A stretch of DNA of 45,124 bases, from NCBI GenBank assembly GCA_025929365.1, contig JAICMG010000006.1, positions 1 through 45,124 of the forward strand, given 5' to 3'. The notes under the pieces were generated by a model, which made no database searches, was not told the origin of the DNA, and saw only the letters and a list, made by a program, of their open reading frames with translations. The position numbers were made by a program, and so were the translations under genes. The first letter of the stretch is position 1. Every line of letters starts with the position of its first letter. Positions 26,659 to 45,124 of this stretch are shown one piece after another. This stretch comes from Frankiaceae bacterium. GTDB taxonomy: Bacteria; Actinomycetota; Actinomycetes; JAFAQI01.

Positions 26659-27462
26659 TCAGTCTGAGGTAAACCGCTCCCGGGCCTTGTCGAACTCGCC
26701 GGACTGCACCAGGCCGTGCACGGCGATCCGGTCGATGTGCCGTTGCGCCGTGCGATCGACGTCGGCGTACATGTCGATCGCGAGCTTCGTGACGCCCAGC
26801 ACGTCGGGCGAGATCGCGGTCAGCCGGCGGCAGAAGGCGTATACCTCGTCGAGGAAGGTCTCGGCGGGGAACACGTCGTGCACCAGGCCGATCGCCAGGG
26901 CGCGGTCGGCGTTGACCCGCATTCCCGCCATCGCGATGTACTTCGCCCAGGACGGTCCGACGATCCGGGTCAGCCGGCTGGTGCCGCCGCTGCCGGCCAT
27001 CACGCCGATGTTGACCTCGGGGAGGCCGAACTCGGCGTGCGGCGTGCAGAAGCGGAAGTCGCACGAGACCGCCATCTCGACACCCGCGCCGAGCGAGATG
27101 CCCTGCGCGGCGATGATCACCGGCTTCTCGATCGCCTCGATCTCGTCGTAGAGGAGGTGGTGGCTTCGGTAGTTGCGGCGGAAGTTCCAGCCGGGGTGCG
27201 CCGCCTCGGTCTGCGGGTTGCCAGGACTCGAGCCCACCTGTGTGCCGAGATCCATGCCGGCGGTGAAGTACTTCCCGGTGCCGGTGATGACAAGACAGCG
27301 AAGGTCATCACGTAACGAAAGGCGGTTGAGTGCTTCCCAAAGCGCGGCCGTCATCTCGGGAGTGATCGCGTTGAGCTTCTCCTCACGCCTGAACGTGACG
27401 GTGAGGATCCCGTCGTGCTCGGTGATGGGCGCGTGCTCGCTGGGCCCGGCTTCCTTTCCCAC
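26659..27462 (-). CDS. Enoyl-CoA hydratase/isomerase family protein
   Basis: YFTAGMDLG; IAAQGISLGAGVEMAVSCDFRFC; PEVNIGVMAGSGGTSRLTRIVG. Confidence 0.93.
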   Translation of the reverse strand: MGKEAGPSEHAPITEHDGILTVTFRREEKLNAITPEMTAALWEALNRLSLRDDLRCLVITGTGKYFTAGMDLGTQVGSSPGNPQTEAAHPGWNFRRNYRSHHLLYDEIEAIEKPVIIAAQGISLGAGVEMAVSCDFRFCTPHAEFGLPEVNIGVMAGSGGTSRLTRIVGPSWAKYIAMAGMRVNADRALAIGLVHDVFPAETFLDEVYAFCRRLTAISPDVLGVTKLAIDMYADVDRTAQRHIDRIAVHGLVQSGEFDKARERFTSD

Positions 27463-36270: not shown

Positions 36271-37211
36271 CGTTTGACGAACGCCGAGTCCATCCCCCCA
36301 CCCCGGCGCTTTCGGATTCCCTCGATCAGGGCCCACCGCAGTCCTTGTACCGGGGCCGCGACCGGCGGGATGTGCTCGGGCCAGCGCTCGTCCGGCAGGC
36401 CGAGGTAGTCGACCTTGTCCCCGGCAGCCGCCACGAACGTCACGTGGTCGCGGAACGCGGCGAGCGCAGGGATGACCGGGTTCGCGCAGTCCAGAACCGA
36501 GGTGTAGCCGGCGTCGGCCAGCAGGTTCAGCAAGCTCGGCCGGGTCAGCCAGAAGGCGTTGGCCACGTCGACTGCCGCACCCGGGCGCGTCGTCACCTCA
36601 GGGCTCGGCCGGCCCCAATAGGTCTGTCCATCATGGCTGAAGCTCGCCCGATCGCTCAGGCTGATCTGTGTCTCGACGACCGCGAACAGCTTCGTCAGAC
36701 GGCGCAGGTCGTGCATGAGTGCGCAGGCGCCCTGGCCATCCAGGTGGTAGAGCAGCCCGAGGCACAGGACGATGTCGAACTCCGATGAGACCAGGCTCGT
36801 CACGTCACGCACGTTGCCCTGCACGATCGACAGCCGGTCGAGTCCCAGTGCTTCCTTGACGAACTCCGCCTTTGCTACGTGACCATCACGCGCTTCGATC
36901 GCGACGACCTCCGCGCCGCGACGCGCGAGCTCGATCGCGAAACCGGCCTCGTGCGCCCCGAGGTCCAGGATTCGCAGCTGCGAGAGCGGCCGGTTCGACA
37001 GGTCGACGACAAGCTGGACGATCCGCTTGACGCGGGCCTCGGCCATCCCGACCAGCCCCTGCGCCATCGTCGACAGACCGGGGGCCAGGTCGATGTTGTA
37101 GCCGATCCAAGGACCGTGAGCGGCGACGATCTCGTCGCGCTTCGCGCGCAGTTCGACCAGGCGCTTCGCGCGCAGATCCTCCTCGGCCCTCACCCGCTGC
37201 ACAGTAGTCAC
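36261..37211 (-). CDS. Class I SAM-dependent methyltransferase
   Basis: LRILDLGAHEAGFAIELARRGAEVVAIEARDGHVAKAEF SAM-binding motif; FDIVLCLGLLYHL; GTG start overlaps upstream stop. Confidence 0.88.
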   Translation of the reverse strand: MTTVQRVRAEEDLRAKRLVELRAKRDEIVAAHGPWIGYNIDLAPGLSTMAQGLVGMAEARVKRIVQLVVDLSNRPLSQLRILDLGAHEAGFAIELARRGAEVVAIEARDGHVAKAEFVKEALGLDRLSIVQGNVRDVTSLVSSEFDIVLCLGLLYHLDGQGACALMHDLRRLTKLFAVVETQISLSDRASFSHDGQTYWGRPSPEVTTRPGAAVDVANAFWLTRPSLLNLLADAGYTSVLDCANPVIPALAAFRDHVTFVAAAGDKVDYLGLPDERWPEHIPPVAAPVQGLRWALIEGIRKRRGGGMDSAFVKRQR

Positions 37212-38521
37212 CGGCCCCGGATCCAGGTACGGCGCACGACCTCCGCGCGTGGGTCGTCGAGCGCCTCCGCGAGCGGGAGGTGGAGCAGGACCAGATCGGG
37301 AAGCTCGCCGGCCCGGACCCGCCGGTGCGGGGCGTGCAGAGCCTCCGGCCGGCGCAGGTATCCGGTGAGCACGACCGACGCGCTCACCCACTCCTTGCCG
37401 TTGACCGGGGCTCGCGACGCGCTGCGCCGATCGCGCGCCGCTCGCATCACCGTCCAGGGGTCCAGCGGTCCGTAGGGAGCGTCACTGCTCGGAGCGACGG
37501 CAACCCCGGCCGTGAGGAACGACTCGTAGCGGTACAGATCAGCGAGCTCGTCGGCCGGAACGTCGCGGAGGTAGCGGTCGCCGCGGTCGAGGATGAACCC
37601 CGGCTGGGTGACGACCGCGACCCCGAGGTGTGCCATGCGTGCCACCGTCTCGTCGTCGGCGACGGCCGCGTGCTCGATCCGGTCGCCGGCCACCGCCCCC
37701 ACCTCGTCCAGCACGGCGAGGATGAGGAGGAGTGCCTCCCGCGACACGCAGTGGACGGCGACCGCGCGGCCGAGCACCCGTGCGTCGGCCACCTGTTCCC
37801 GCAATGTCTCGTAGCTCGGCAGGTCGTGGTCCTCGATCACGATCTTTCGGGGCCCGATGCTGCCGCCCGGCGGTGGCTGCTCGGCGAGGAAGTGAATCCG
37901 CTGCGGGAGATCAGCCGCAGCGAACAGCGCCGCGGCGCCGGGCCCGAGAACGGGCGAGGCGTCCGTCACGCCCGTGATGCCCAGCCCGGAGAGCATCCGG
38001 CCGAGTGCCCGCAGATCTGGTGGGTCGTCCGCCACTCGCGCACCGAGCCAGTCGTCGAGTCGGAAGAGCCGCCCGGTGGGGTGGCCGTCGACGCCTCGCT
38101 CGATGCCGGGCTCGTCGGAATCGGCTGCCCCGACCGCAGCCAGCCCCGCGGAGTTGAGCACCCACATCGCCCCGCTGCGGTGCTGCACTCGCACCGGACG
38201 GTTCGCGACCACGCGGTCGATTGCCGCGGCGTCGAGATCGTCACCGCCGCCGACCGCCCGGATCCAGCCGGAGTTGCTAGGGGCGGTTGCGAGGGAGTCG
38301 AGGCCGTTCGCGACGTCGATCGACCGTCGCGCCGCTGCTGTCGCGAGGAGATGGATGTGGTGGTCGTGCAACCCGGGGAGGAGCGCTGCGCCGCCGGCAT
38401 CGATGACCTCCTCGTTGCGGATCGGTGCCATCGCGTGCGGCGAGACCTGTTGCACCATGTGGCCGTCGAACCGGACGTCGACGATCCGGCGATCCACTTG
38501 AGCGCCGCGGATCAGCGTCAC
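37208..38521 (-). CDS. Amidohydrolase family protein (YtcJ-like metal-dependent hydrolase)
   Basis: LLPGLHDHHIHLLATA HxH motif; AVHCVSREALLLIL; RIEHAAV; APSSDAPYGPLDPW. Confidence 0.88.
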   Translation of the reverse strand: MTLIRGAQVDRRIVDVRFDGHMVQQVSPHAMAPIRNEEVIDAGGAALLPGLHDHHIHLLATAAARRSIDVANGLDSLATAPSNSGWIRAVGGGDDLDAAAIDRVVANRPVRVQHRSGAMWVLNSAGLAAVGAADSDEPGIERGVDGHPTGRLFRLDDWLGARVADDPPDLRALGRMLSGLGITGVTDASPVLGPGAAALFAAADLPQRIHFLAEQPPPGGSIGPRKIVIEDHDLPSYETLREQVADARVLGRAVAVHCVSREALLLILAVLDEVGAVAGDRIEHAAVADDETVARMAHLGVAVVTQPGFILDRGDRYLRDVPADELADLYRYESFLTAGVAVAPSSDAPYGPLDPWTVMRAARDRRSASRAPVNGKEWVSASVVLTGYLRRPEALHAPHRRVRAGELPDLVLLHLPLAEALDDPRAEVVRRTWIRGR

Positions 38522-39783
38522 GTCGTCGGCCGCACGGTGGGCCGTCGTACCGCGACCAGCTCGGCGCCGTCGTCGACGTACCACTCCTCACCGCGTGCTA
38601 CGACCGCGGCGTCGGGGAGGGCGGTGCGCGCGGCGCGGGCGACGTCGTGCATCGCGATGTCGAGCAACGCCGATCGCCCGGTGAGGACGCCCGCCAGCGC
38701 GGCAACTGCCGCGTGCGCTCCGGTCAGCGGATCGGCGATCGCATCCCCCGCGAAGACGGCGCCGCTGCCCAACAGGCCGGCGGCTGCGGCGACGTCGTCG
38801 CCGTAGCCGATGCGGTTGTGCGCGCGACCGTACGCCGTGATCGACACCCAGCTGCACGCCTTCGCCGCCGCGACGATCTCCGCCGGATGGACGCCGAGCT
38901 GGTGGAGCGCCCGTGGCCGCGTCGACTCGATGACGATGTCGGCGGTGCTCACCAGCTCGGTCAGCGCCGCGACGCCGTGGGGGTCGGCCAAGTCGAGCGT
39001 GACCCGCGCGGCATCGCCGCGCAGCAGCCGGTGGAACTCAGGGGCAACGGCTCGGGTCGGGTCCGGACGGCGAGTGCTCTCAACCGTGATGACACGGGCG
39101 CCGAGCAATCCGAGGAGGTGGCCGCAGAGCGGCCCGGCCCACAGCGTCGAGAGATCGACAACGGTCACCGGTCCGGCGAGTGGAGCGGGCTGGACCGGCG
39201 ACGAACGGGAGCCCGGGACGGGCGTTCGCAGGGTCGGGTCGACGGCTCCGGCCGCGAGCCCGAGCAACACGGCGCGCTCGACGACTTCTGAGGCAGGCGA
39301 TTCGCGGACCCATTCGGCGAGGCTCGGCCAAGGATCTGCCGCTGTCATCTCGCGTCCCGTGAGGGCCGGCAAAGAGGCGATGTCCTCGGGCCGCGAGAGC
39401 GTCAGCGCCACCATGCGGTCGGCCGCATCGAGCAGTCGGGTTGCGCCGCCCGCGGACGTGCGGCCGCGCCGATGCAGCGCCATGTAGGCGGCCCGCTCGG
39501 ACAGCACGCGCGAGTCGGGCAGTCGCATCGGATCGAGCCCCGCGATGCGCGCGAGCGTGGAGAGCGCGAGCAGCGCGCCGCGCATCGTCGTCGCGGGTGC
39601 GCCTTCGACGAGCCGAGGCGGTCCATCTGTCGCACCGGTCAGATGCATCGCTCCGCAGGCAGCCCAATCGGCGACGATGCTGCTCGGCTGCTCGGCGTCG
39701 GCGACGTCGGCGGCGATGCCGTGGCTCGTGAGCAGTGCACGGGCGTAAGCGGCCGCCGGATCGGCGGCGTCAGCCCAGCTCAT
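38518..39783 (-). CDS. CaiB/BaiF-like CoA transferase with rearranged domain order
   Basis: PLAGPVTVVDLSTLWAGPLCGHLLGLLGARVITVES and VTLDLADPHGVAALTELVSTADIVIESTRPRALHQLG (normally N-terminal) lie in the C-terminal half, after an ADRMVALTLSRPED linker-domain-like segment. Confidence 0.85.
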   Translation of the reverse strand: MSWADAADPAAAYARALLTSHGIAADVADAEQPSSIVADWAACGAMHLTGATDGPPRLVEGAPATTMRGALLALSTLARIAGLDPMRLPDSRVLSERAAYMALHRRGRTSAGGATRLLDAADRMVALTLSRPEDIASLPALTGREMTAADPWPSLAEWVRESPASEVVERAVLLGLAAGAVDPTLRTPVPGSRSSPVQPAPLAGPVTVVDLSTLWAGPLCGHLLGLLGARVITVESTRRPDPTRAVAPEFHRLLRGDAARVTLDLADPHGVAALTELVSTADIVIESTRPRALHQLGVHPAEIVAAAKACSWVSITAYGRAHNRIGYGDDVAAAAGLLGSGAVFAGDAIADPLTGAHAAVAALAGVLTGRSALLDIAMHDVARAARTALPDAAVVARGEEWYVDDGAELVAVRRPTVRPTT

Positions 39784-40495
39784 CGACCAGCCCCCAGTGC
39801 AGTGCGGTAGCCGCATCGATCGCTGCGCCGGATCGAGCGAGCTGCTCGGTTCGCTCCACGCCGATCCGTCGCGGCAGGCTGACCGTGCCACCGGCGCCGG
39901 GGATCAATCCCATCGCGAGCTCGGGCAGCAGGAAGGTGGTGTCGGGGTCGGCGATGACGTGCCCGGCGAACGCGGGCAGCTCCACGCCCGCACCCGCGCA
40001 ACGGCCGTGAACCCGAACGGTGATCCGGTCGCGTAGGCGGTGTACGGCGGCACCGAGGCTTCGGGTCGTACGGATGAAGTGCGCGCTGGCCGGGTCGGTG
40101 AGGGTGCCGAACTCGTCGAGGTCACCGCCGCTGCAGAAGGACGGTCCGATCCCGGTCCACTCGACTCGAAGGCTCGGGTCGGCCTCAGCGATCGCGAAGG
40201 CGTCGAGCAGGCCGTCGCGGGTGGCGGCGTTGATCGCGTTGCGCCGCTCCGGGCGGTTGAGCTGGATGCGCAGCATGTCGCCGGCCCGACTGAGCCTGAC
40301 CGGCTCCCGCGCGACGAACAGCTGCCGTGCCGACCGCGAGGCCAGCCAGGCCTGGTGCTCGGGCCCCGACTGCAGCGTCGAGTAGGCGAGCGACTCAACG
40401 ACCAGCGCATCCTCGACCGGCAGCCCAGCCGACGCGCGCAGGACCGACGACAGCATCGCCGATGCCTGGGACTCGGTGGCTGCCATGGAGCGCAC
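39770..40495 (-). CDS. Enoyl-CoA hydratase/isomerase-like protein with apparently permuted C-terminal segment
   Basis: LNRPERRNAINA; FCSGGDLDEF; RCAGAGVELPAFAGHVIADPDTTFLLPELAMGLIPGAGGT; ORF stops just after WGLVDELG; N-terminus has ESLAYSTLQSGPEHQAWLASR. Confidence 0.85.
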   Translation of the reverse strand: MRSMAATESQASAMLSSVLRASAGLPVEDALVVESLAYSTLQSGPEHQAWLASRSARQLFVAREPVRLSRAGDMLRIQLNRPERRNAINAATRDGLLDAFAIAEADPSLRVEWTGIGPSFCSGGDLDEFGTLTDPASAHFIRTTRSLGAAVHRLRDRITVRVHGRCAGAGVELPAFAGHVIADPDTTFLLPELAMGLIPGAGGTVSLPRRIGVERTEQLARSGAAIDAATALHWGLVDELG

Positions 40496-40504
40496 GAAGC
40501 GACG

Positions 40505-42016
40505 TTAGCCGCCGCGGGGATCGTCGGCGGTCAGCTCGTCGACGAGGACTCGCCTGAGCAGCTTGCCGGTCGGCGTGACGGGCAGCTCGTCGCGGAACAC
40601 GATCCGGTCCGGCGTGCGACTACCGCGCAGCGACTTGCGGGCGAAGGCGCGCAGCTCTTCCGGATCCACCTCTCGATGGGGCGCTCCGTCGTCCGGCGAG
40701 TGCAGCACGACCACCGCGACGATGCACTCGCCCCACTCGTCGTCCGGTACGCCGACGACGGCGACTTCGTGGACATCAGGGTGTTCGACGAGGACGTCCT
40801 CGACCTCGGCGGGTGCGATGTTCTCGCCGCCGCGGATGATCGTGTCGTCGGCGCGGCCCTCGATGAAGAGGTAGCCGTCGGGATCGATCCAGGCGCGGTC
40901 CCGGGTCGGGAACCAGCCGTCCGCGTCGACGGCGCTGCCCGAGAGGTACTCACCCGACACCTGCGGACCGCGGACGAAGAGCTCGCCGGTCTCACCCGCG
41001 CCGAGAACACGGCCGTCCTCGTCGCGGACCTGGGCCTCGATGCCCGGGATCAGCCTGCCGGCGCTGGACAGCCGCGCCTGCACTGCGGGCTCGTCGCTGG
41101 TGAGCGCAGCCCGATGGTCGTCGGCGTCGAGCAGCGCGATCGTGCTCGACGTCTCGGTCAGGCCGTAGGCGTTGACGAATCCGGTCTCCGGAAACGCCTT
41201 GAGTGCTGCTGCGAGGACCGGGTGACTCACGCGCGCGCCGCCGTACGCGATCGAGCGAAGCGTCGGTGCGGCGGCCTGGGCGCCGCCGAGGTGGTCGACG
41301 ATCCGCGCGAGCATCGTCGGGACGACCATGGCATTGGTGATGCCTTCGTCGACGACCGTGGCAAGCCAGCGATCCGCCGCGAAGTCCGGCAGGTGCACGA
41401 CGCGTCGGCCGGCGGCGGTGTTCGTCAGCACGGTGCCGACGCCCGCCACGTGGTACGGCGGGACCGAGACGAGCGCTGCATCGGCTTCGTCTGCCGAGCC
41501 AGGGTCAACGGTTTGCAGCACGTAAGAGACAAGGTGTGAGTGGCGCAGGATCACGCCCTTGGGTGCGCTCGTCGTACCGCTCGTGAAAAGGAGCACCGCC
41601 GTCGACTCGTCGTCGACGTCGACGAAGTCCGGTTCCGCTTCGGGCAGTGCGAGCAGATCGCTCGTCGTCACCACCGGCACGCCGGAAGGCAGGTGCGGCA
41701 GGTATGTCTCGTCGGCAACGACGAGCGGGGTGTCCAGCTGACGGATCAGGTCAGCGAGCTGCTCGTCGGAGAGCCGGTAGTTGAGCGGCGCTGCCGGCAC
41801 GCCGGCGTGCGCTGCCGCGAACAGCGCGACGTGGAACGCGGGACCCGACAGGCCGACGTAGGCGAGGGTGCGCGCGTGCGAGGCCTGCAGGTGCGCCGCG
41901 GCGCTTCGGGCGCGCCGGTCGAGGTCGGCGAACGTCATGCCGCCGTCGCGGGCGCCGACCGCGATCCGTTCCGGCACCATCCCGTTCGCAAGGTCGAGCA
42001 ACAGCGTCAGGCTCAC
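40505..42016 (-). CDS. AMP-binding acyl-CoA synthetase/ligase
   Basis: LLFTSGTTSAPKGVILRHSHL; AYGLTETSSTIALL; GWFPTRDRAWIDPDGYLFIEGRADDTIIRGGENIAPAEVEDVL; PTGKLLRR; GTGA overlap. Confidence 0.95.
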   Translation of the reverse strand: MSLTLLLDLANGMVPERIAVGARDGGMTFADLDRRARSAAAHLQASHARTLAYVGLSGPAFHVALFAAAHAGVPAAPLNYRLSDEQLADLIRQLDTPLVVADETYLPHLPSGVPVVTTSDLLALPEAEPDFVDVDDESTAVLLFTSGTTSAPKGVILRHSHLVSYVLQTVDPGSADEADAALVSVPPYHVAGVGTVLTNTAAGRRVVHLPDFAADRWLATVVDEGITNAMVVPTMLARIVDHLGGAQAAAPTLRSIAYGGARVSHPVLAAALKAFPETGFVNAYGLTETSSTIALLDADDHRAALTSDEPAVQARLSSAGRLIPGIEAQVRDEDGRVLGAGETGELFVRGPQVSGEYLSGSAVDADGWFPTRDRAWIDPDGYLFIEGRADDTIIRGGENIAPAEVEDVLVEHPDVHEVAVVGVPDDEWGECIVAVVVLHSPDDGAPHREVDPEELRAFARKSLRGSRTPDRIVFRDELPVTPTGKLLRRVLVDELTADDPRGG

Positions 42017-43176
42017 GGCTGGGTTTCTCCCTGGGGGTGAAGTCGACGGAGCGCATGGGTGAGGACGGCGTGGCGGTGTTGCAGCCCAGGCTCGTTGCGC
42101 CCGAACACCAAGTGGGGCGACAGGCCGGTCTCGAGGTTCGCCTGCAACCGCGTCGCGAGTGCGTAGTCCTCGTCGCGCACCGTGTGATGGGCGTAGTCGA
42201 AGACCGCCTCGGCACCCGCGCGGGCCTCGGCGGTGTCGAGTGGGAAGCGCCAGGCGTTCTGGTGGAAGGTCGTCGACTCGCCCGGACGGCTGCCCGGGTA
42301 GACGCGGAAGATCTCGCCGTTGACCGCGGTCACGGACAGCACGACGTTCGGGTAGATCGCGTAGATCACCGTGAGGCGGTCGAGCGGCACCCACTCGTCC
42401 TCCGGGGCGTCGCCGACGTCGTCGATCGCCCGAAGCGGGAACACCAGGCGGTGGTGCGGGCCGAAGCTGTCGAACACGGTGCAGTTGCTGAGCGCGATCG
42501 TCGCGAATGTCGACGCGTGCACGGTCGCGAAGTGGTAGTTCTCGGCGAACGTGTCGACGGCGAGCTTCCAGTTGACGGGTACGTCGAGCCGCTTCTCGCC
42601 GATCGGGTTCCACGTGCCGAAGGCCCACGACTCGAGCTGCGGGCCCAGCTCGCCGAGGTGAGCCGCGACGTCGAGCTCGGCGCCCGGCTCGAGTCCGAGC
42701 CAGAGGAATCCGGCGTACTCTGCCGCCGGCAGCTCTGGCAGCCGGGCGGCTACCGACTGCTCAGGGGTGAAGCCTTCATCGCCGGGTACCCCCACCACTT
42801 TGCCCGTGAGGTCGTAGGTCCACGAGTGATACGGGCAGGCGAGCCGTTGCGCAGCGCCGCAGCCGCTCGCGATCGGTGCCTGTCGATGCCGGCAGATGTT
42901 GTGGAACGCGCGGACCTTGCCGTCCTTCGCGCGCGTGAGCAGGACGGGCGTGCCCATCACGTCCTTGACGGCGTACGTTCCCGGCTTGGGGAGCTCGCGC
43001 GAGTAGCCGACGAGCTGCGGAGCGGCGCGCACCAGCTCGCGCTCCTGGGCGAAGCGCTCAGGATCCGTGTAGTGCGCCGCGGGCTCCAGCCGCTCGGTGT
43101 CCGTCATGTCGGTCGTCTGCTCCGCGCGCAGCTTCATCGCCCGCCGCATGACGTCGATCAGCTCGTCACGGTTCAC
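42013..43176 (-). CDS. Rieske 2Fe-2S aromatic ring-hydroxylating oxygenase, alpha subunit
   Basis: NICRHRQAPIASGCGAAQRLACPYHSWTYDLTGKVVGVP Rieske motif; NWKLAVDTFAENYHFATVH mononuclear iron motif; GTG start 43176. Confidence 0.94.
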   Translation of the reverse strand: MNRDELIDVMRRAMKLRAEQTTDMTDTERLEPAAHYTDPERFAQERELVRAAPQLVGYSRELPKPGTYAVKDVMGTPVLLTRAKDGKVRAFHNICRHRQAPIASGCGAAQRLACPYHSWTYDLTGKVVGVPGDEGFTPEQSVAARLPELPAAEYAGFLWLGLEPGAELDVAAHLGELGPQLESWAFGTWNPIGEKRLDVPVNWKLAVDTFAENYHFATVHASTFATIALSNCTVFDSFGPHHRLVFPLRAIDDVGDAPEDEWVPLDRLTVIYAIYPNVVLSVTAVNGEIFRVYPGSRPGESTTFHQNAWRFPLDTAEARAGAEAVFDYAHHTVRDEDYALATRLQANLETGLSPHLVFGRNEPGLQHRHAVLTHALRRLHPQGETQP

Positions 43177-43183
43177 GTCGGCT

Positions 43184-44644
43184 TCACCAGCTCGCCGTGT
43201 TCTTGCCGGCGTCGGTCGTGACCTTGACCTCGACGCCGACCAGCTCGCGGGACTCGGCATCTTCGAGGAGGTCTGGCTCGTACACGCGCGCGAGCGTGCG
43301 GCCGGCGGGTACGTCGAGGACGAGCAGCGCAGACTGCGGTCCTTGGCGGTCGTGGGCGACGGTGTACGCCGCGACGGTCGCGGTCCCGTCGTAGGTGTCG
43401 ACGAGCGCTCGCCGCGGCTGTGCGGCGTCGACCTCGGCCTGGACGTCGGGCGCCGCGGTCCAGCCTGGCGTGGTCCGGTAGATCGCGGCGACGTGCTTCT
43501 GCATGTGCATGCCGACGCCCGTCACGAGGGCGTGACCGCCGTCAGCGCGAAGCCGCTCCACCGAAGTCGCGATGCCGTGCAGCAGGTAGCCGCTGCCCGG
43601 GCCTCCCGCGAACGGCAGGCCGCCGGTGACGGTGAGCCCGCGCGAGTCGAGCGGGTCCAGCCCGAGTGCGTCGCTCGCCAGAGTCAATGACGACGGGAAG
43701 CAGGAGTAGAGGTCGAAGCAGGTGACCTCACCGAGGTCGATGCCGGCGGCCTGGAGCGCGGTGCGACCGGTGATCCGCATCGCGGCGGACGCGGCCATGT
43801 TGTCCCGCTCGGCGACGCCCGCCGGGTCTTCGGCGTAGGAGCTGCTGGCGAGGTAGACCCGCTTGTCCGTCGGGATGCCGAGCGCGTCGGCCTTCTCCGC
43901 GGTGGTCACGAGGAGAGCGGCCGCCATGTCGACGTCCATCACCGACACCTCGTGCTTGGTGTACGGCCAGCCGACGTAGCGGTTGTCCGGACTTGCGGTC
44001 TGCACCTGCTCCACCGTCAGCACCTCGGGCGTCCAGGCGTGCGGGTTGGCCGCCGCGGTCGGCGTCATCGCCGCCATGACCGCTGCCATCTCGCGGGAGT
44101 ACGTCGTGAGGTCGCTGCCGCGCGCGGCGCGACGCGCGGTGTCCCACAGGGGGAAAGTCTCCCAGGCCTGGAACACCTCGTGCGCGAGCTCGACCGCGGG
44201 CGGCGGCGTCCACGGAAACGGTGACGGTGGGGTTTCGCGGAACGACCATGCCGGCTTCTCACCGGCCCGCTTCAGCGCCTTCTTGGTGGCGAGTGCCTCG
44301 GCGCCGACGATCAGTGCCGAGTCCAGCTCGCCGCGCTGCATCGCCTCCGCGGTCTGCGCGACGAGCACCTGCGGGATGGTGCCGCCGATGCCGGAGTAGA
44401 GCGTGTGGCCGGGCGTTGCGCCGAGTCGCTCGGCCAGCCGGCCGGCCGGGTCGTCGTACGGCCAGGTCTGGCAGTACACGACCTGGATCGCGTCGAGTGT
44501 GGCGAGGAGGTCGGGCGCTCCGGCGTCCTCGGCCGCGGCTCGGGCAACCTGCTCCCACGAGACCAAGGGCTCGGGTGCCTGGCCGGGGGGTCGCACCGTC
44601 TGCTGTGCGACCCCGACGATGCAGAGGTCCCGCGGGTTGCTCAC
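43184..44644 (-). CDS. Thiolase-like protein type 1 (TLP1-like), SCP2-thiolase family
   Basis: Thiolase fold segments (AVSNPRDLCIVGVAQ; ALIVGAEAL; CFDLYSCFPSSLTLASDALG; GGLPFAGGPGSGYLLHGIA); extra C-terminal OB-like domain (TYDGTATVAAYTVAHDRQGPQSALLVLDVPAGRTLARV). Confidence 0.82.
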   Translation of the reverse strand: MSNPRDLCIVGVAQQTVRPPGQAPEPLVSWEQVARAAAEDAGAPDLLATLDAIQVVYCQTWPYDDPAGRLAERLGATPGHTLYSGIGGTIPQVLVAQTAEAMQRGELDSALIVGAEALATKKALKRAGEKPAWSFRETPPSPFPWTPPPAVELAHEVFQAWETFPLWDTARRAARGSDLTTYSREMAAVMAAMTPTAAANPHAWTPEVLTVEQVQTASPDNRYVGWPYTKHEVSVMDVDMAAALLVTTAEKADALGIPTDKRVYLASSSYAEDPAGVAERDNMAASAAMRITGRTALQAAGIDLGEVTCFDLYSCFPSSLTLASDALGLDPLDSRGLTVTGGLPFAGGPGSGYLLHGIATSVERLRADGGHALVTGVGMHMQKHVAAIYRTTPGWTAAPDVQAEVDAAQPRRALVDTYDGTATVAAYTVAHDRQGPQSALLVLDVPAGRTLARVYEPDLLEDAESRELVGVEVKVTTDAGKNTASW

Positions 44645-45124
44645 GATGGTGCTCCTGTCGTGCACGGCAGCGACTTGATGCCGTGGAAGAACGCCGACCG
44701 CAGCCGAGTGGGCTCCGCGGTGGCCGCCAGATTGGGCGCCCGCACGTAGAGCTCGTCGAGCATGACTGCGATCTCGAGCTTCGCCAGCTGCGCGCCGAGG
44801 CAGAAGTGGGTCCCGAGACCGCCGAAGGCGACGTGCGGGCCGGGCTCGCGCGTGAGGTCGAAGCGGTGGGGATCGGTGAAGACGCGCTCGTCGCGGTTGG
44901 CCGACAGGTAGTGCATGACGACCCAGTCTCCTGCTTCGATGTGCTGGCCGGCTATCTCGACGTCGGTCGTTGCGGTGCGGCGGAAGTGCAGGACCGGCGT
45001 CGACCAGCGGAGCAGCTCGTCGATGACGGCCGGGGTGGCGCCGCCGCGCCTCGCCATCAACGCCCGCTGCTGCGGGTGGTGGGACAACGCGTGGATCGCG
45101 TGGCTGAGGGTGTTGCGGGTCGTC
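44641..45124 (-). CDS. Cytochrome P450, C-terminal part (truncated by window edge)
   Basis: TTRNTLSHAIHALSHHPQQ reads from the edge (I-helix); VIDELLRWSTPVLHFRRTAT ExxR; FGGLGTHFCLGAQLAKLE heme-binding loop. Confidence 0.95.
   Translation of the reverse strand, partial: TTRNTLSHAIHALSHHPQQRALMARRGGATPAVIDELLRWSTPVLHFRRTATTDVEIAGQHIEAGDWVVMHYLSANRDERVFTDPHRFDLTREPGPHVAFGGLGTHFCLGAQLAKLEIAVMLDELYVRAPNLAATAEPTRLRSAFFHGIKSLPCTTGAPS

Follow-up and report, generated by a model that had tools for sequence, protein, structure and literature searches.

A likely circularly permuted crotonase and its rearranged CaiB-like partner in a three-gene module

Crotonase P0001 of a Frankiaceae bacterium very probably represents a group of permuted crotonases in which the helical segment that classical members carry at their C-terminus stands at the N-terminus of an intact catalytic core, an order that would have arisen by tandem duplication and reciprocal loss. 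Its gene belongs to an apparently catabolic module that also encodes a rearranged CaiB-like protein and an Amidohydro_3 family enzyme. The underlying DNA comprises positions 1-45,124 of contig JAICMG010000006.1 (assembly GCA_025929365.1), and this whole stretch of 45,124 nucleotides is called the window below. In classical crotonases, the C-terminal helices form the active-site lid and serve oligomerisation, and enoyl-CoA hydratase proper (EC 4.2.1.17) is a hexamer built as a dimer of trimers.

A crotonase that ends with its catalytic core

As described in the original prediction, the crotonase ORF terminates right at ...ALHWGLVDELG* (Table 1). Pfam ECH_1 aligns to residues 74-239 with its profile positions 6-172 of 251 (E 6e-29), and nothing downstream in P0001 corresponds to the last ca. 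80 positions of the profile, while about 70 residues stand ahead of the core. We note that the window encodes a second crotonase of ordinary, classical length elsewhere (26659-27462, minus strand; 267 aa).

Table 1. Positions of the crotonase, its partner genes and their parts in the window
Feature	Position	Strand	Details
Amidohydro_3 family gene	37208..38545	-	Third co-occurring member
CaiB-like partner P0002, rearranged	38518..39783	-	421 aa; start codon overlaps crotonase 3' end by 14 bases
P0002 residues 206-382	38638..39168	-	CoA_transf_3 positions 4-199 of 366 (first half)
P0002 residues ~40-180	39244..39666	-	Class III CoA-transferase positions 143-316 (second half); hhalign 63.2 vs shuffle maximum 18.4
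Circularly permuted crotonase P0001 (well supported from sequence)	39770..40495	-	241 aa; GTG start at 40495, alternative ATG = residue 4
P0001 catalytic core, residues 66-241	39773..40300	-	Aligns to crotonase 4-183 of 259
P0001 E192 (LPELAMG)	39920..39922	-	Invariant in 81 sequences
P0001 E172	39980..39982	-	Invariant in 81 sequences
P0001 linker, residues 55-65	40301..40333	-	Joins permuted helices to core
P0001 residues 1-54, putative equivalent of classical crotonase C-terminal helices	40334..40495	-	Profile match with controls; AF2 secondary structure
Acyl-CoA ligase (AMP-binding), upstream	40505..42016	-	Stop 9 bases before crotonase start

Orthologs of P0001 (E <= 2e-54, nearly all aligned over residues ~1-240) were found in 14 out of 60 related genomes, while the ordinary crotonases of the same 60 genomes scored at E >= 5e-24, with alignments that began only around residue 60. 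Scanning genome contigs yielded 80 further loci from Actinomycetota, Myxococcota and Pseudomonadota, and 20 out of 397 genomes in a spread sample of Actinomycetota carry the permuted crotonase, with database annotation describing these proteins merely as enoyl-CoA hydratase/isomerase family. One locus (L070) is titled as a Bifidobacterium breve MAG, though its sequence is near-identical to Acidimicrobiia members and it is probably mislabelled or contaminated.

Apart from the absence of the 70-80 C-terminal residues itself, nothing speaks for the removal of a normal C-terminus by a local frameshift, truncation or assembly error, and we assign this explanation a negligible probability. All 94 homologous loci, spread over several phyla, end 0-24 residues past the end of P0001, which means that this end is not a local frameshift, and the start of the CaiB-like gene overlaps the crotonase stop so that no lost tail is left. 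A C-terminal helical domain after the core was sought in the same 94 loci and detected in none, with the equivalent helices being N-terminal instead. The caveat attached to the original prediction that homologs might retain a normal C-terminus, lost here by frameshift, was thus not borne out, and local frameshift or truncation is refuted by the shared end point.

Catalytic residues and predicted structure

The two active-site glutamates of rat ECHS1, Glu144 and Glu164, presumably correspond to E172 and E192 of P0001 judging by sequence motif, and the spacing of 20 residues is the same in both proteins. The predicted oxyanion-hole region (GGDL, GxGxE) is similarly conserved, with G123, G124, L126, G168, G170 and E172 invariant in 81 sequences. 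Because both motif-equivalent glutamates are invariant, P0001 likely performs crotonase chemistry, which could be either enoyl-CoA hydration or the hydrolytic C-C cleavage of a cyclic oxoacyl-CoA. NCBIfam holds no equivalog for P0001, and all scores are far under the cut-off (best 94 vs 400).

An AF2 model of P0001 (pLDDT 94.4, pTM 0.91) has helices at residues 10-22, 27-42 and 45-53 ahead of the core, and we infer from sequence that these are spatially equivalent to the C-terminal helices of classical members. Foldseek aligned ~180 core residues to PDB crotonases with a TM of ~0.67 and about 25-38% identity, and none of the PDB chains that it listed matches the whole P0001 chain in sequence order; given that Foldseek follows sequence order, these ~180-residue matches speak neither for nor against a permutation.

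The N-terminal helices match the C-terminal part of classical crotonases

The original prediction had recognised a crotonase-type C-terminal helix pattern at the N-terminus of P0001 (EDALVVESLAYSTLQSGPEHQAWLASR, residues 28-54), and both its conservation and its profile match indicate more than chance. Across this region, an E, L, G and W are invariant among the 58 homologs that align over it. Using 33 classical crotonases drawn from the fetched loci as reference, an HMM of their C-terminal part scored 32 out of 89 family N-termini above the 99th percentile of shuffled sequences, compared with just 1 out of 89 for a core HMM as control. P0001's own N-terminus gives no match to the C-terminal HMM, and the case therefore rests on the family profile.

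In profile-profile alignments, the profile of all 89 N-termini aligns to crotonase positions 185-238 with a score of 24.7, while the controls reached at most 14.2 over 100 column shuffles, 10.4 for the reversed profile and 10.3 when only the crotonase core was the target. When the 66 longest homologs are used, the helix match falls at crotonase positions 181-234 of 259 and scores 29.4 (vs 10.5 for CaiB profiles). The hhalign probabilities for the helices are moderate (21-55%). A comparison of the N-terminal residues to the C-terminal helices of the crotonase profile, as had been suggested along with the prediction, hence gives a match while shuffled, reversed and core-only controls stay at noise. 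When the family columns are arranged in permuted order (core, then helices), they cover 239 columns of the 259-column crotonase profile with a score of 339.7, compared to 180 columns and 316.7 in their natural order, in which no columns are gained, 312.8 for the core alone and at most 324.8 for the core followed by shuffled helices.

Searches with single proteins or against single structures return much less. Pfam, NCBIfam and PDB searches with P0001 saw the core only, and phmmer against 4jyl gave, as a very weak and non-significant second domain hit, an alignment of residues 18-46 to chain residues 227-255. Among 177,635 unselected PDB sequences, the N-terminal profile found 11 weak matches, 3 of them to enoyl-CoA hydratases and in the register that would be expected (4nek 170-233, 3myb 201-231 and 4lk5 118-158; E 0.34-9.3, none individually significant), and the helix-only profile run against the PDB with HMMER gave a single chance match to a designed protein. 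Pfam detected no other domain in 58 N-terminal parts, so that no known unrelated domain accounts for the N-terminus.

The weakness of these individual matches and the E-values above 0.1 in the PDB scan would be compatible with helices that were added independently, replacing the lost C-terminal ones by analogy, and whose likeness merely reflects convergence of Ala/Leu-rich sequence. We consider such an origin improbable, because column-shuffled and reversed profiles of the same composition stay at noise and because the match lies at the exact C-terminal position, keeps 53 columns in register and is specific to crotonases as opposed to CaiB. A circular permutation or segment swap, as proposed originally, is well supported at the level of sequence by the helix profile match and the absence of a normal C-terminus, and it is literal for the genus of the Frankiaceae sequence.

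Tandem duplication as a possible origin of the permuted order

Most homologs carry about 50-115 extra N-terminal residues, which include what appears to be a remnant of another crotonase core. This part (family columns 36-90) aligns to crotonase positions 66-127 with a score of 23.8 (maximum 13.3 over 200 shuffles), upstream of the helix match and in the right order, with hhalign probabilities of 3-17%. CaiB profiles also reach 18.0, which makes the crotonase origin of the remnant less secure. In an AF2 model of the long homolog from Prauserella flavalba (95.7/0.94), the N-terminal remnant forms an ordered beta-alpha unit, and it is also included in three Rhodococcus plasmid homologs in RefSeq (1,014-1,107 bases). 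The short forms without remnant are P0001 and a homolog of the same genus (L002), upstream of whose genes a remnant HMM found nothing significant; in the window, the ligase stop 9 bases before the crotonase start leaves no room for it. P0001 and L002 group together in the family tree (100/99) and then weakly with remnant-bearing members, making a single loss of the remnant the simplest history.

These observations lend moderate support to a route by duplication. A tandem pair of crotonases would have fused, upon which the first copy would have lost its catalytic loops (residues ~128-180, where the catalytic PE..G..PGxGG motif lies) along with some of its start while keeping the C-terminal helices, and the second copy would have kept its full catalytic core while losing everything past residue 183. 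The core remnant of the first copy would then have shrunk to the size still seen in most homologs before the genus of the Frankiaceae sequence deleted it to become a clean circular permutant. The helices may fold back in cis against their own core, or else against an adjacent subunit, as in classical members. A full-length, unreduced tandem crotonase as ancestor was not found in this analysis. We also note that one homolog (L014:1468-2223, minus strand) carries a long Ala/Pro/Gly/Thr-rich insert with GTPGTPG repeats exactly at the joint of helices and core, and a fusion joint might look like this.

Alternatively, a true permutation could have come about by transposition of the C-terminal coding segment, which would make the N-terminal part of the long homologs an unrelated alpha/beta add-on. 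The weak remnant match, the scores of CaiB profiles for the same part and the placement of the short-form genus, which falls close to the base of the family tree within a group of weak support, fit this scenario, which we nevertheless regard as unlikely given that the remnant exceeds all 200 shuffles and is co-linear upstream of the helices, that 4lk5 matches in register and that remnant-bearing members are found on both sides of the deepest split in the family.

The CaiB-like partner and the three-gene module

The neighbouring CaiB-like protein P0002 had also been called rearranged, and the order of its profile matches, second half and then first half, confirms this. In the alignment of its family, columns 20-157 correspond to positions 143-316 of class III CoA-transferases, columns 176-365 to positions 1-206 and a tail of columns 378-406 to positions 350-379, so from its sequence P0002 looks like a shrunken tandem of such an enzyme. 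At the site of the class III catalytic Asp motif G-[YH]-D, the P0002 family has [FY]GDD, for which a one-residue alignment shift is possible, and its catalytic competence appears uncertain from the sequence. Tandem CaiB proteins of ~790 aa are encoded at three Myxococcota loci (L057, L060 and L075) on the strand opposite the crotonase and are possible unreduced relatives of P0002.

The crotonase, CaiB-like and Amidohydro_3 genes share an identical distribution over 60 genomes, with all three present in the same 14 and all three absent from the remaining 46. The chance of this pattern would be 1/C(60,14) = 6e-14 for independent genomes, an assumption that does not hold here. Genome G024 carries each of the three genes twice. 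With regard to the expectation that homologs always adjoin the CaiB-like gene, co-presence held in 14 out of 14 genomes but constant adjacency did not: across 85 loci, the CaiB-like gene directly follows the crotonase gene in 13, is arranged head-to-head with it in about 14 and lies elsewhere on the fetched stretch in about 33, and it was not found on the fetched stretch in 25, many of which are short contigs. On Rhodococcus plasmids, CoA transferase and amidohydrolase genes stand head-to-head with the crotonase. Matches to the CaiB-like protein, the amidohydrolase and the acyl-CoA ligase were detected in 43, 39 and 39 of 55 long loci, respectively, counts that possibly include distant paralogs.

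Upstream of the crotonase in the window, the minus strand of 40505-45087 encodes the acyl-CoA ligase, a Rieske oxygenase alpha subunit, a thiolase-like acetyltransferase and a P450 that is truncated where the window ends, which apparently form one catabolic operon. Neighbourhoods across the loci, with ligases, SDRs, luciferase-like monooxygenases, thiolases, P450 and Rieske oxygenase, likewise look catabolic. Co-occurrence and gene order only suggest a complex of the crotonase with the CaiB-like protein, and the trimer or active-site lid of the crotonase may be built differently, as originally inferred. More tentatively, both proteins may owe their present form to tandem duplication followed by reciprocal deletion and may now be an obligate pair, perhaps in one complex with the amidohydrolase, that serves an unrecognised CoA-dependent catabolic module of Actinomycetota, Myxococcota and Pseudomonadota and uses the rearranged termini as a docking or channelling interface.

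Relation to known systems and significance

P0001 shares the core, the GGDL motif and both Glu motifs with classical crotonases (ECH_1 PF00378; EchA19 NF051848, the 3-hydroxypropionyl-CoA dehydratase 5zai, 4jyl and ECHS1) and also has their C-terminal-type helical segment, but before the core instead of after it, and unlike these enzymes most of its homologs additionally bear the reduced N-terminal core remnant. DpgC-type crotonases resemble P0001 in having an N-terminal helical part ahead of a crotonase core, but they keep their own C-terminal part and their N-terminal domain is a larger addition. P0002 belongs by sequence to the same superfamily as class III CoA-transferases (CaiB/Frc, PF02515) and their ~790-aa tandem forms, yet differs from them as a reduced tandem in which 143-316 comes first, followed by 1-206, with the short 350-379 tail and the [FY]GDD motif. 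A search of open-access literature turned up no account of a permuted crotonase, and a literature search on a module of crotonase, CaiB-like and amidohydrolase genes returned nothing pertinent. The permuted crotonases are apparently a group that is widespread in bacteria and so far undescribed. Neither their altered topology, nor the matching rearrangement of the partner, nor the strict association of the three genes seems to have been remarked upon before.

In functional terms, the module suggests a catabolic step that has not been characterised so far. Circular permutations that occur in nature and have left surviving intermediates offer a way to study the rearrangement of folds, and the long homologs together with the short form of P0001 look like successive steps of a duplication-based permutation, here in a superfamily that has been the subject of much study.
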